A stretch of DNA of 64,000 nt from an uncultured bacterium (GTDB lineage Bacteria; Cyanobacteriota; Vampirovibrionia; Gastranaerophilales; Gastranaerophilaceae), in assembly GCA_949297715.1 (NCBI GenBank), contig CASFTJ010000001.1:186001-250000 (forward strand), read 5' to 3'. The translations under genes and the position numbers were made by a program. Positions 30,593-43,763 of this stretch are shown piece by piece. The first letter of the stretch is position 1. Every line of letters starts with the position of its first letter. The notes below the pieces were generated by a model. It made no database searches. It was given only the letters and a program-made list of their open reading frames with translations, and had not been told where the DNA came from.

Positions 30593-31717
30593 ATGCAGAA
30601 AAATAAGCTTAAACAAATAAATATCAATGAACTTACCGAAAATTCACCTGACTTAAAAAATATTGAGGTGTCAAAAGCATCGGCAATCGCAGAATGGCTT
30701 AGTAACACCATTGAAAAAGGTTTAACTTCAGGTAAAATCAAAATCGGAAGCCTTCTTCCAACTAAACCCAACTTAGCTTTTCGGCTTGGAGTAAGTGTCG
30801 GAACAATTCAAAACGCTTTAAGAATTTTAGAAGATAGAGGTTTTGTAGAATCAAAACAATGCATCGGAACACTTATAAAAGACAAAAATTCAGAAACTAA
30901 AATAAGAAAATTAACTTCCAAAAGAGAAACAGCCATTGAAGATATAAAAAAATACATTAAACGTAAAAAATTCAAAATCGGAACTCTGCTTCCTTCAACC
31001 AGAAATATTGCAAAAGAAATTTCGATGTCTTTCAACACAACTAGGCTTGCTCTTGAAAAATTATGCACCGAAGGAATTTTAGAACACCGATATAAAAATT
31101 CACAAGATTCGGGATGGGTTGTTAAATCAAACAATTTTTCTACAGTTAACACAACTTTGGAACAAGAAACTCTTGTTGAAAAAGTTGAATATGACCTTAA
31201 AAACTACATAACAACAAACCTTAAAATTAGCGATAAAATTCCGCCTCACGGTAAACTTGCAAAATTATTCAATGTAAGCATAAAAACGATTCACGATGCT
31301 TTGCAAGGGCTGATTATGGAAGGGATTCTTCTTCCAAGACGCGGAAGATACGGAACTTCAGTTATCAAAATGCCTGAGGACAAAACAATAAATATCGGTT
31401 TTGAAACCTCAATTTTTGCAAAAGCTCAAGATACAGCTTTTTACTACTACGAAAGAACTCAAAACCAGCTTAAAAAAATGATAAGTGAAAATTACTCAAT
31501 CGGAGACAGGCTTCCGTCAATAATGGCACTTTCAAAAGCATTAGATTTAAGCCCGAATACTATAAGAAAAGCTTTTAAAAATTTGGCTTCAGAAGGTTAC
31601 CTGACATTTTCGCGCGGAAGATACGGCGGAACTTTCGTTATTGATATTCCGCAAACAGATACTCAAGCTTTCAAATGGCTTGCTGTTAACCCGAATTATG
31701 CTAAAAATTTAAATTAA
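30593..31717 (+). CDS. Regulator with four tandem GntR-type winged-helix domains
   Basis: The 374 residues form four successive GntR-type winged helices, at about residues 30-97, 112-178, 195-260 and 285-350. Each shows the GntR pattern of a helix, 'KIGSLLPTKPNLA' or 'GDRLPSIMALS', a recognition helix such as VSVGTIQNALRILEDRGFV or LSPNTIRKAFKNLASEGYL, and a wing such as GRYGTSVIK. No effector domain (FCD, UTRA, aminotransferase or HutC type) is attached. Known GntR regulators carry a single wHTH, so a four-copy chain would contact DNA at up to four sites in one polypeptide. It is convergent with the phase-variable pilin gene at 31742, 24 bases away. The target is unknown. Confidence 0.85.
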   Translation: MQKNKLKQININELTENSPDLKNIEVSKASAIAEWLSNTIEKGLTSGKIKIGSLLPTKPNLAFRLGVSVGTIQNALRILEDRGFVESKQCIGTLIKDKNSETKIRKLTSKRETAIEDIKKYIKRKKFKIGTLLPSTRNIAKEISMSFNTTRLALEKLCTEGILEHRYKNSQDSGWVVKSNNFSTVNTTLEQETLVEKVEYDLKNYITTNLKISDKIPPHGKLAKLFNVSIKTIHDALQGLIMEGILLPRRGRYGTSVIKMPEDKTINIGFETSIFAKAQDTAFYYYERTQNQLKKMISENYSIGDRLPSIMALSKALDLSPNTIRKAFKNLASEGYLTFSRGRYGGTFVIDIPQTDTQAFKWLAVNPNYAKNLN

Positions 31718-31741: not shown

Positions 31742-32518
31742 TTACCAAGGATAATCCTTTTTCATTTCCCAGCTATCATTTATTATCTTTGCTGCACAGT
31801 ATTCTCCGGTACCATTTAAACTGCAATTACTGTTAATTTCTGCTTGAGTTTTGTCATATCCGAATGGTCTTACGATGTTTTTGTCAAAAAACACTTGAAA
31901 TACAAATACATCTTTACCTATAATATTTGGAGGTTTGATTCCATTTAAATCGACATGAACTCTTTGTCCCGAAGAATATTTTGCTATTTTTGAAATTATA
32001 TTACCGTCATCATCATATTCATATTCCCACCACATCATATTTATATAATATGCTGTTCCATCCATTGTTGTAAAATATATTCGACCAATACTGTATGATG
32101 TAAATATACTTTGTCCATATTTATCACCATTTATTGTTTTGAATATGCTATCAATTCCGTAAGGGTATACACCACTTTTTGAAACCGTCGGGTTATTAAA
32201 ATATGGAAGCCAGTATTGTTCAAAAAATTTTTTGGTTGCATCTGCATTCACCGTGTCTGACGTAGAAAAATAAGCCCCGCCGTTATCTTCTTGAGCTTGC
32301 AAAACCATTTGACTTAATACCGTATAAGCTTTTTTTAATTGTGATATTGTTGCCTGCTTTTTATATTTACCCAATACTGCAGGAAGAGTCATTGCAATAA
32401 CAACGCCCAATATCCCTAAAGTTATTAAAACTTCCGCTAATGTAAATCCAGCCTTTTTCCCTTTTAAGGAGCTATTCTTGGGCGCCCCCCCCCCCCATAA
32501 TCCAATCATACTGTGCAT
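31742..32518 (-). CDS. Type IV pilin-like protein with poly-G leader, in frame (ON)
   Basis: This 258-residue protein begins MHSMIGLWGGGAPKNSSL and continues GKKAGFTLAEVLITLGILG, so the prepilin leader has an unusual glycine run encoded by G12 (32485-32496). ATG 32518 has the strong ribosome site AAGGAG at 6 bases spacing, and with 12 G it reads in frame through the whole pilin. The shared motif DLNGIKPPNIIGKDVF is present at the C-terminal side, and the tail ends DYPW. A 9-base copy complementary to the ribosome site lies in codons 17-20. Upstream is the palindrome-rich repeat at 32573-33160. It is convergent with the four-wHTH regulator. Confidence 0.9.
   Translation of the reverse strand: MHSMIGLWGGGAPKNSSLKGKKAGFTLAEVLITLGILGVVIAMTLPAVLGKYKKQATISQLKKAYTVLSQMVLQAQEDNGGAYFSTSDTVNADATKKFFEQYWLPYFNNPTVSKSGVYPYGIDSIFKTINGDKYGQSIFTSYSIGRIYFTTMDGTAYYINMMWWEYEYDDDGNIISKIAKYSSGQRVHVDLNGIKPPNIIGKDVFVFQVFFDKNIVRPFGYDKTQAEINSNCSLNGTGEYCAAKIINDSWEMKKDYPW
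32485..32496 (-). repeat. Homopolymeric G12 tract in pilin leader (in frame)
   Basis: A run of 12 C on the plus strand (12 G on the coding strand) lies 22 bases after the A of the pilin ATG. In-frame reading needs a length divisible by 3, and 12 satisfies this. A change of one base would switch the pilin off. Confidence 0.92.
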
Positions 32519-32572
32519 TTCCAGCTCCTTATCATTTTATATATCACTCTTTTATTATATCAACCCTTTTTA

Positions 32573-33160
32573 TTTTTGACAAGTATTTAGATTTTATGCG
32601 CCACACAAAAGCACTAACCAAACTTTGCGGTGCGTCGAAACGACGCACCATACAATATAAAAGCCTAAATTCCCTCAAATATCTTAAAAAACAAAATTTT
32701 GCGACGATGGCAGAGTGTGTAAATTTTTATTTAAATAACCACCCTTCACGTAGTGAGCAAGCATTGTTTTGTTTCACAGCTTCATAAGCAAGCTTTGTTT
32801 GAGCGGAGCGAGTTTGCTTGCTTTGGGTGAAACATTTACATATGATTAGCGAACGGAGTGAAGGGCGTGGTTTGCGTTGCTTTTCCACAAAAGCGACCGC
32901 CCTTCTAGCGCAAGACCTGCCGGAGGCTTTATAAATCTATTTTTTGGTGTGTCAAACGACACACCCTACTTGAGCTTTGCGTATTATAAGCAAACGTAAG
33001 CGTGTCAATGGTTTTGAAACACTTTTTCCACAAAAAGTGCCCCTGTCCGGAGGACTTTTTTTAAACATATTCAAAAGCAAACCGCTGTCTGCGCAAGACT
33101 CGCCGGAGGCTTTAATTATCTTCGTTTTATAATTTTGGTGCGTCTTTCCGACGCACCCTA
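32573..33160. repeat. Palindrome-rich dispersed repeat, copy A (~590 bp)
   Basis: This 5' flank of the phase-variable pilin fills most of the 678-base gene-free gap 32519-33196. It shares long near-identical stretches with 41062-41621 (for example ATTTAAATAACC at the left side and TCTATTTTTTGGTGTGTCAA further on). It holds hairpins GGTGCGTCG-3-CGACGCACC (32629-32649), GGTGTGTC-4-GACACACC (32946-32965) and GGTGCGTC-5-GACGCACC (33137-33157), and nested longer stems (TGTTTCAC with GTGAAACA; CCACCCTTCAC with GTGAAGGGCGTGG). No coding frame with a ribosome site is seen. The outer limits are approximate. Confidence 0.85.
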
Positions 33161-40291: not shown

Positions 40292-41008
40292 TTAGTACCA
40301 AATCTTGAATGGGTAATCTTTCGGTATCATCCAATTGTTATACTGTATTAAAAGTGTGCAATAGGCTGCCCAAGTAGAACTTTTACTACAACCATATAAT
40401 GAATGATTATACAAATTACTTTTAGAACCATCCCAATTACTCTGACCATATGGACCAAAAACTCTGCCTTTTATATTTGTTGAAACCGGATTGTAAAAGA
40501 AAGCAAATTTACATATTCCCCATCCATCATGTCCTCCAGAATATTTTTTCAAACATTTTTCAGGATCTCCCGGATAAAAGGTCCAGTCCCGACCATTGGA
40601 ATCTACATTTGAAAAAGCGCCGCCATCTACAAGATAGTAAATCACAACCCCATAAGCTGTTGTATCTGATTCTTTTAATATATTTAAATGCTCTTTTAAA
40701 TACAAATCAAACCAAGCTTTATTCAAAGAATTTCCATCTGCATCAACGCCGTAGACATCCTGAAACCAAGTTTCTCTTTCACCATGCTTATTCTCTGCAA
40801 GCATTATTGCCTGATTCATTACTGTATAGAATTTTTGTAACTTAGTCGCTAAAACTTTCTTTTTGTGATCTTGAACCACTGTCGGCAAAGTCATTGCTGC
40901 AACAATTCCAATAATCCCAATCGTTATTAAAACTTCCGCTAATGTAAATCCTGCCTTTTTGCCTCTTAAGGAGCTATTCTCGGGTGCCCCCCCCCCCCTG
41001 TAATTCAA
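40292..41008 (-). CDS. Type IV pilin-like protein, out of frame behind a G12 tract (OFF)
   Basis: The open pilin frame encodes GKKAGFTLAEVLITIGIIG and a ~200-residue body, but the properly spaced ATG at 41021 (AAGGAG, 6 bases) is 13 bases above the annotated start and out of frame. With 12 G the frame from that ATG runs to TAG after 15 codons, so no full pilin is expected. The only in-frame start above the signal is TTG 41008 without a ribosome site. An 11- or 14-G tract would restore the frame. Unlike the other six, the C-terminal region lacks the DxNGxKxPN motif and holds GRVFGPYGQSNWDG instead. Confidence 0.85.
   Translation of the reverse strand: MNYRGGGAPENSSLRGKKAGFTLAEVLITIGIIGIVAAMTLPTVVQDHKKKVLATKLQKFYTVMNQAIMLAENKHGERETWFQDVYGVDADGNSLNKAWFDLYLKEHLNILKESDTTAYGVVIYYLVDGGAFSNVDSNGRDWTFYPGDPEKCLKKYSGGHDGWGICKFAFFYNPVSTNIKGRVFGPYGQSNWDGSKSNLYNHSLYGCSKSSTWAAYCTLLIQYNNWMIPKDYPFKIWY
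40987..40998 (-). repeat. Homopolymeric G12 tract in pilin leader (out of frame)
   Basis: A run of 12 C on the plus strand (12 G on the coding strand) lies 23 bases after the A of ATG 41021. The in-frame lengths are 11 or 14, so the pilin is OFF in this assembly. Confidence 0.9.
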
Positions 41009-41061
41009 TCATATCAAGCATTTCCAGCTCCTTATACTTTTCTATGCTACTCTTTTTACTT

Positions 41062-41621
41062 TTGACAAGTATTTAGATTTTACGTGCACCAACAAAGCAC
41101 CAAACCAATTAATTCGGTGCGTCGAACGACGCACCCTACTAATATTTTATATACAACTAAAAAATAAATTTTGCGACAATAGCGGAGTGTGCAAATTTTT
41201 ATTTAAATAACCGCCCTTCACGTAGTGAACAATCATTGTTTTGTTTCACGGCTTCATAAGCAAGCTTTGTTTGAGCGAAGCGAGTTTGCTTGCTTTTGGT
41301 GAAACATTTACATATGATTAGCGAACGAAGTTCAGGGCGTGGTTTGCGTCGCTTTTCCACAAAAGCGACCGCCCTTCTAGCGTAAGACCCGCCGGAGGCT
41401 TTATAAATCTATTTTTTGGTGTGTCAAACGACACACCCTACTTGAGCTTTGCGGATTATTAGCGAACATAAGCGTGTCGATGGTTTTGAGGCACTTTTTC
41501 CACAAAAAGTGCCCCCGTCCGGAGGACTTTTTTAAAATATATTCAAAAGCAACAGCCCTTCTTGCGCAAGACCTGCAGGAGGCTTTATAAATTTATTTTT
41601 CGGTGCGTCGTTCCGACGCAC
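41062..41621. repeat. Palindrome-rich dispersed repeat, copy B (~560 bp)
   Basis: This second copy of the element at 32573-33160 also lies upstream of a G12 pilin gene, in the same orientation relative to it. It has the same hairpins: GGTGCGTCG-2-CGACGCACC (41116-41135), GGTGTGTC-4-GACACACC (41418-41437) and GTGCGTCG-3-CGACGCAC (41603-41621). Most of its length can be aligned by eye with copy A, with point differences and small gaps. The rest of the gap to 41747 is AT-rich. Confidence 0.85.
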
Positions 41622-41746
41622 AAACAATTTAGTTTATTTATTCACACACTCGTATATTTAGACGAAATAACTCACTTTAATTTGACTGTTATTAAAATTT
41701 TAAATAAAATTATCGTGTTTATATCTAAATTAACAGGAGAAATAAG

Positions 41747-42935: not shown

Positions 42936-43763
42936 CTATCTTCCATTTATAAAATCGTGCCAATAGTCTTTATGTTTGTCCGTTGGATGAGTATTTGAAA
43001 TAGCATACATTGAACAAGAAATACCGCTATAAGGTGAATACCATTTATTATCGCAATATTTTTCCGTATTTTCATTTGGAATGAAATTAGTATAGACACC
43101 GTTTTCACCATATTGATTATCTTTGTGTTGCTGCCCCCAAGGAATTACATAACCATCAGTCGTAAATATAAATACAAAATAATCTACTCCGTAAATATTT
43201 GGCCCTTTTTCTCCATTTATATCTATACAGACTTTAGGACCGTTTTTACCACTTTTGGGAGCATCATCAAAAGATATAGGTCTACCTATGCCGTCAAAAA
43301 AAGTTGAGGTTACATCACAAATTGACTGACAATCCAGATTTTTACTACTAAGAACACTCCAACCATGCCATTTGCCATCTTTACCTTTGTATGGTCTTGC
43401 TCCAACATTATTCCCATCCTCATCTACTGTAGAATTTACATTTGTATTCTTTTTTAGTATGGCATTAAATTCTTTTTTAAATAGATTTAATGTCGCCTGC
43501 GAATCTGAATTTGAGGCATAATCACTTACTGTTGTACCATTATGAACCTGAAACATCTTGCTTGCTGTATTCAAATCAGCATAAGCCTTTTTAAACTCCG
43601 TTTGTAAAATCACAATCTGGTAATGCTTCATTAACTGCGGAAATGTCATTGCTGCAACGATTCCAATAATTCCAATCGTTATCAAAACTTCCGCTAATGT
43701 AAATCCTGTTTCTTTCCCTCTTAAGGAGCTATTCTCGGGTGCCCCCCCCCCCCTGTAATTCAA
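42936..43763 (-). CDS. Type IV pilin-like protein, out of frame behind a G12 tract (OFF)
   Basis: This is the third G12 pilin. The prepilin signal is GKETGFTLAEVLITIGIIG, and the body holds the shared motif DINGEKGPNIYGVDYF. The properly spaced ATG is at 43776, and the sequence from there to past the G tract is base-for-base the same as in the 40292 gene. With 12 G it reads out of frame to TAG. The annotated frame has only TTG 43763 as start, with no ribosome site. In-frame lengths are 11 or 14 G. No long repeat lies upstream, unlike the other two. Confidence 0.85.
   Translation of the reverse strand: MNYRGGGAPENSSLRGKETGFTLAEVLITIGIIGIVAAMTFPQLMKHYQIVILQTEFKKAYADLNTASKMFQVHNGTTVSDYASNSDSQATLNLFKKEFNAILKKNTNVNSTVDEDGNNVGARPYKGKDGKWHGWSVLSSKNLDCQSICDVTSTFFDGIGRPISFDDAPKSGKNGPKVCIDINGEKGPNIYGVDYFVFIFTTDGYVIPWGQQHKDNQYGENGVYTNFIPNENTEKYCDNKWYSPYSGISCSMYAISNTHPTDKHKDYWHDFINGR
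43742..43753 (-). repeat. Homopolymeric G12 tract in pilin leader (out of frame)
   Basis: A run of 12 C on the plus strand (12 G on the coding strand) lies 23 bases after the A of ATG 43776, so the pilin is OFF in this assembly. The leader is identical to that of the pilin at 40292. Confidence 0.9.

Follow-up and report, generated by a model that had tools for sequence, protein, structure and literature searches.

A 12-G run in the leader of a prepilin-like gene

The window analyzed here is a 64,000-nucleotide (nt) stretch of contig CASFTJ010000001.1 (assembly GCA_949297715.1, positions 186,001 to 250,000) from an uncultured member of the Gastranaerophilales, common and largely uncultured gut bacteria that are non-photosynthetic relatives of cyanobacteria. 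Its minus strand carries, at 31742-32518, a gene for a type IV prepilin-like protein of 258 amino acids (aa), and 22 bases from the ATG at 32518-32516 (spacing 32518-32497) lies a run of 12 G (32485-32496). AAGGAG stands 5′ of the ATG at 32530-32525, and the minus-strand sequence at the start reads TAAGGAGCTGGAA-ATG CAC AGT ATG ATT GGA TTA T-GGGGGGGGGGGG-CG CCC AAG AAT AGC TCC TTA. With 12 G the frame is open through the run as W-GGG-APKNSSLKGKKAG/FTLAEVLI... (slash, expected cut) to a stop at 31742, and its translation joins the leader MHSMIGLWGGGAPKNSSLKGKKAG to a mature protein beginning FTLAEVLITLGILGVVIAMTLP. A run of 11 G leads instead to TAA after the peptide MHSMIGLWGGGRPRIAP and one of 13 G to TAG after MHSMIGLWGGGGAQE; both stops fall in TAGCTCCTTA, a short way 3′ of the run. 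The gene is ON when the run length is 0 modulo 3: the run is a homopolymer of at least 8 in the 5′ coding region that is ON in one register only.

A sequence-only reading of this DNA had described the 12 G, their 22-base distance from the ATG and a pilin frame continuing through them, and each of these is borne out. For its claim that the full protein is made with 12 G, the ON reading frame is certain, while actual production is what that frame would predict. That reading also linked a run that is a multiple of three to an oligo-glycine segment kept in the leader. A multiple of three does go with the ON state here but fails as a general ON criterion: at two sister loci in the window, also with 12 G, the run begins after 23 bases, and reading from the equivalent ATG gives the OFF state. 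Across the three window loci, a gene is ON when the bases before the run and the G count add up to 34 or to a number that differs from 34 by a multiple of 3. The three runs occupy the same position in three pilin genes and account for 12 overlapping G9 matches in the window, against 0.09 expected from shuffles; they are not due to chance.

A true start downstream of the run, a possibility raised by the sequence-only reading itself, is unlikely, and we rejected it: this gene has no ATG, GTG or TTG from its run to its pilin motif, and 21 of the 22 G-run pilin loci of the genome likewise have no alternative start there. Also rejected was a TTG as start codon of the sister loci in their default frame (MNYRGGGAPENSS): it has no Shine-Dalgarno (SD) sequence, and in other species, for example at loci L127 and L130 of the related genome G003, a stop but no start precedes the run in the pilin frame.

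Table 1. Features of the G-run pilin gene and of its two sister loci in the window
Feature	Position	Strand	Basis
Sigma-70-type promoter TTGTCA-17-TATAAT of the pilin gene	32554-32582	minus	consensus scan, 11/12 matches
Shine-Dalgarno AAGGAG	32525-32530	minus	sequence
Left arm TAAGGAGCTG of the predicted 10-bp SD-sequestering stem	32522-32531	minus	RNA folds, centroid structure
12-G run in leader-peptide codons, proposed length switch, ON register	32485-32496	minus	sequence
Right arm TAGCTCCTTA of the stem; contains the OFF stops TAG (13 G) and TAA (11 G)	32465-32474	minus	sequence, folds, anti-SD enrichment
Codons 1-24, long prepilin leader MHSMIGLWGGGAPKNSSLKGKKAG, expected cut G24/F25	32447-32518	minus	translation; Pfam N_methyl match, residues 21-44
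Type IV prepilin-like protein, 258 aa, ON	31742-32518	minus	translation, profile matches, model
12-G run of sister pilin; ATG 41021 (SD-preceded), frame end 40292; OFF, 15-aa peptide MLDMIELQGGGGTRE	40987-40998	minus	sequence
12-G run of second sister pilin; ATG 43776 (SD-preceded), frame end 42936; OFF, 15-aa peptide	43742-43753	minus	sequence

The pilin and its leader

The 258-aa protein exceeds the cut-offs of PF07963 (N_methyl; 26.9 bits against 21.2, residues 21-44) and TIGR02532 (21.6 against 16.3) and falls below every curated cut-off for the GspG, ComGE and PilA equivalogs. It carries a class III signal, KKAG/FTLAEVLITLGILGVVIAM, with a basic leader, a G/F junction, E at +5 and a hydrophobic helix. 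An AlphaFold model, for which 17 sequences from the window and a DNA search served as input, had a mean predicted local distance difference test (pLDDT) score of 75, with a long helix at residues 27-79 and a beta-rich C-terminal region; a PDB fold search with this model gave no confident match, a weak PilA match being among the top hits.

Some pilins in the window without a G-run start directly with MKKAF, MRKAF or MKNGF, and the G-run pilins have a leader about 20 residues longer than those without. These extra residues fall wholly in the leader that prepilin peptidase should remove; because the run is confined to this removable part, length changes by threes would leave the mature protein untouched. 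The same genome holds processing and assembly machinery, as expected for a type IV prepilin: besides about 90 pilin-like matches, counted from 94 stretches of which some belong to one gene, there are four PF00437 (T2SSE/PilB-type ATPase) matches over cut-off and one prepilin peptidase match (PF01478) just over cut-off. The pilin is predicted to be cleaved and assembled into a filament.

A genome-wide family of G-run pilins

Sequence searches of the window's assembly (G000, 2.02 Mb, a 34-contig draft) found 27 G-runs of length 9 or more, of which at least 22 lie 22-33 nt after the SD-preceded start of a type IV prepilin-like gene, with the pilin motif 3′ of the run. Run lengths at the 22 pilin loci are 10-13, mostly 12, and their registers are 15 OFF1, 2 OFF2 and 5 ON, with the gene at 31742-32518 among the ON loci and both window sisters OFF. 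About half of the 22 have a TTGTCA-17-TATAAT-type promoter upstream, and promoter, leader and N-terminal region are strongly common to the paralogues. An identical 40-base leader is found in G010, the most similar other genome, which represents another species of the window's genus, here labeled g1. A phage-borne or mobile leader was considered and rejected, as no match was found in viral contigs.

At the sister pilin 40292-41021, TTGTCA is followed directly by AAAGTAAAAAGAGTAGCATAG (41000-41150), and the -10 element of the shared promoter appears deleted; this sister may therefore be off twice. A long intergenic repeat with palindromes GTGCGTCG...CGACGCAC is common to 32600-33160 and 41100-41640, upstream of two of the window's G-run pilins. 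Convergent to the 31742-32518 gene, a plus-strand gene at 30593-31717 encodes a protein in which four winged-helix stretches of the GntR type, but no effector domain, were reported.

Run lengths and registers among relatives

Runs of G9 or more are present in 40/44 good genomes among the relatives searched, the highest count being 111 in a genome of 1.8 Mb. In run-rich lineages the lengths tend to peak sharply at one modal value: 12 in most members of genus g1, 10 in G019 (29/37 runs), G026 (57/88) and G034 (73/90), and 11 in G016 (48/89) and G023 (37/48). The nine genomes with classifiable loci contain 116 pilin loci, 99 OFF and 17 ON; stretches from G016, G026 and G032 yielded no classifiable pilin leader under the rules used, and in G026 the runs occupy other contexts. 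Within a lineage nearly all OFF loci share one register, even though the parts before, in and after the run vary: all 10 loci of G022 are OFF1, 32/38 of G034 are OFF2, and genus g1 is mostly OFF1. The frame shift that recoding would need to reach the pilin frame is +1 in g1 and G022 and -1 in G034. The ON length is 11 for G000 loci with 23 bases before the run, 12 for those with 22, and 11 in G034, and most run-bearing pilin genes at their lineage's modal length are one G from ON.

Several further patterns accompany the pilin runs. The few intergenic runs have lengths similar to those in leaders, as if slippage had a lineage-specific set-point. Some G034 pilins (L091:5103, L094:912, L103:5997 and L105:183) have poly-C rather than poly-G in the leader, with length 10 and the same OFF register. 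Pilin leaders L107-L118 (G012) and L139-L144 (G006) contain long in-frame inserts that place the tract up to about 700 nt from the motif; these inserts are rich in repeats (HPELDSGSI / LDPESIN) resembling palindromic repeat elements in the leader region. Outside pilins, four G-runs at L133:1181-9211 (G003, minus strand) lie inside partly duplicated DNA-methyltransferase-like genes, which suggests phase-variable restriction-modification, and G026 contigs C18 and C24 (L176-L178) carry clustered G10-G14 runs, none in a pilin leader, with one following a methyltransferase-like frame.

Evidence for length change and selection

Run length differs among near-identical copies and among relatives. In G000, locus L051 (G12, OFF) and locus L059 (G11, ON) have identical flanks over 45 bp upstream and 40 bp downstream. 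Between species, the related loci L068 of G000 (G12, OFF) and L122 of G010 (G11, ON) are one G apart, and L053 of G000 (G11) shares its upstream flank with L121 of G010 (G12); overall, near-identical flanks occur with 10 to 13 G. Run lengths are also bimodal: they fall at 5-7 or at 9-15, leaving a gap between 7 and 9, a distribution that repeats beyond a threshold for slippage should show.

The pilin frame has stayed open: at the 89 loci where no more than 60 codons separate run and motif, its 1416 codons between the two include 0 stops, whereas the other frames have 120 and 136; loci were picked partly on open frames, although in this subset stops were allowed and none was found. The ratio of nonsynonymous to synonymous substitution rates (dN/dS) was 0.14-0.38 in 6/7 pairs including OFF genes, and 0.59 in the seventh, divergent pair. 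Judged from these ratios, the OFF genes are intact under purifying selection. Intact OFF genes, an open frame and low dN/dS together suggest that the run is read through often enough for the genes to be kept. The phase variability proposed by the sequence-only reading thus gains strong support from comparison, through flank-identical paralogues with different G counts, one-G differences between species and intact OFF genes.

A predicted stem over the Shine-Dalgarno sequence

At the 31742-32518 gene, TAAGGAGCTG (32531-32522) can pair with TAGCTCCTTA (32474-32465) over 10 bp, enclosing start codon and G-run. RNA folds gave an SD pairing probability of 0.98 at this gene, whose stem is also in the centroid structure, 0.98-0.99 at the three window loci, and a mean of 0.78 across G000, compared with 0.13 when the downstream segment was shuffled. 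The complementarity recurs: CTCC is found within 45 nt after the run at 62/110 loci, compared with 34/550 control windows further downstream. In G034, whose leaders differ in sequence, CTCC occurs in 13/33 and folded pairing is 0.28 against 0.21. The case for the stem rests on the specific stem and its recurrence, and because the genome copies are related, these counts are not independent. In genus g1 the stem probably lowers translation once ribosomes stop in an OFF frame. The model behind this is that ribosomes in the OFF frames would stop in the right arm, the stem would re-form and the transcript would fall silent, while in the ON frame each ribosome would keep the stem open. Such SD blocking would be a possible second layer beyond the account in the sequence-only reading.

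Interpretation and alternatives

The 12-G run is likely to act as a slipped-strand switch of translation within the leader codons of this type IV prepilin-like gene, one copy of a cassette present about two dozen times. This reading builds on the observed anatomy of the locus, its frames, its recurrence across the genome, near-identical copies that differ in run length, purifying selection and recurrent complementarity. A single G gained or lost by replication slippage would put the downstream codons out of frame, and translation would end no more than about 10 codons past the run. When the gene is ON, the run encodes glycines in a leader that prepilin peptidase should remove, making the mature pilin independent of exact run length. 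The cassette comprises promoter, SD, about 22-33 nt, G-run and anti-SD, placed before different pilins; at the modal length most copies are OFF and one G from ON, with the copy at 31742-32518 being ON. Slippage in living populations is suggested by these comparisons of assembled genomes.

Several observations weigh against this reading. Run lengths are spread less widely, and the OFF register varies less, than one would expect of a typical contingency gene (gonococcal pilC2 extends from G9 to G13 across strains, PMC5320596); the length comparisons cover paralogues and species rather than strains, with one assembly per species; and shared descent and recombination link the loci, whose counts are therefore not independent trials. 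The stem, for its part, is missing in G022, which belongs to another genus (CTCC 1/10), and weak in CASGAK, and folding of the whole region is not significant (z about -1). A more elaborate version of the switch is conceivable but rather doubtful: in such a two-key system, a lineage-tuned poly-G set-point would hold dozens of pilins one G from ON, an SD clamp kept open only by a run-traversing ribosome would silence OFF transcripts, and the cell would display a small stochastic subset of pilins, to whose output slippage during expression may add.

The uniform default register of each lineage, maintained even with varying parts around the run, and the RNA stem that encloses the run in genus g1 could instead point to programmed recoding, in which the off-by-one register is normal, DNA length is fixed, and pilin arises by ribosomal or transcriptional slippage at a level set by its efficiency. 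This is unlikely. Programmed frameshifting calls for a conserved shift direction and a fixed run length, but the shift needed is opposite in sign between genera, G counts differ between near-identical flanks and 17/116 loci are ON in the DNA itself. Furthermore, the few runs outside coding leaders have similar lengths, so frame is not the sole determinant of the mode.

We consider it quite improbable that the locus is locked, with the run a slowly evolving relic, the 31742-32518 gene constitutively ON and its paralogues silent donors for recombination. The strong commonality of promoter, leader and N-terminal region among paralogues, which extends to upstream intergenic repeats, would suit such donors, as would a comparison limited to one assembly per species; however, the OFF genes are intact with signs of purifying selection, the leader preserves an open pilin frame, and G count varies between near-identical copies. 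Least probable is an assembly or sequencing artefact in which run lengths are off by at least 1 and the ON/OFF calls are noise. Long G-runs are error-prone and several copies lie at contig ends of the 34-contig draft, but the same modal length is found in many independent g1 genomes and a different one in others, and compensating flanks keep the same register; random miscalls would not give lineage modes and compensating flanks.

Comparison with known systems

The proteins resemble type IV pilins and type II pseudopilins in their G/FTLAEVLIT motif, long N-terminal helix and, in the model, beta-rich C-terminal region; they differ in reaching no curated equivalog cut-off, in a leader about 20 residues longer and in the lack of a confident PDB match. 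The literature searched (titles and abstracts) yielded no account of phase variation for Gastranaerophilales/Melainabacteria, and the large pilin repertoire with putative on/off switching is apparently undescribed; the lineage-specific modal length and the SD stem look new. If the runs switch, this would be among the denser poly-G repertoires known to us (as many as 111 runs in 1.8 Mb), and in the present genome it would be aimed mostly at pilins. Lineage-specific run length combined with a default-OFF register would also offer a testable case of repeat set-point evolution.

Translational phase variation by poly-G runs is classical. The nearest case is gonococcal pilC, whose run also lies within signal-peptide codons, and the nearest in repertoire is Campylobacter. 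In Neisseria pilC1/pilC2, a change in poly-G length likewise switches the protein and affects pili (PMC5320596, citing Jonsson et al. 1991), with G9 to G15 in pilC and G9 to G13 in pilC2 across gonococcal strains (table in PMC5320596). While pilC comprises one or two pilus-assembly genes, here pilin-like subunits in about two dozen copies per genome would switch, and the shared cassette and the predicted SD-blocking stem of genus g1 are features of the present system. The Campylobacter phasome (PMC6321876) is similar in that a small genome holds many G-runs, most of them in genes of surface structures; its runs lie in diverse, mostly surface-modifying genes, whereas those of the present genome lie mostly in one pilin superfamily, at a fixed position in the leader.
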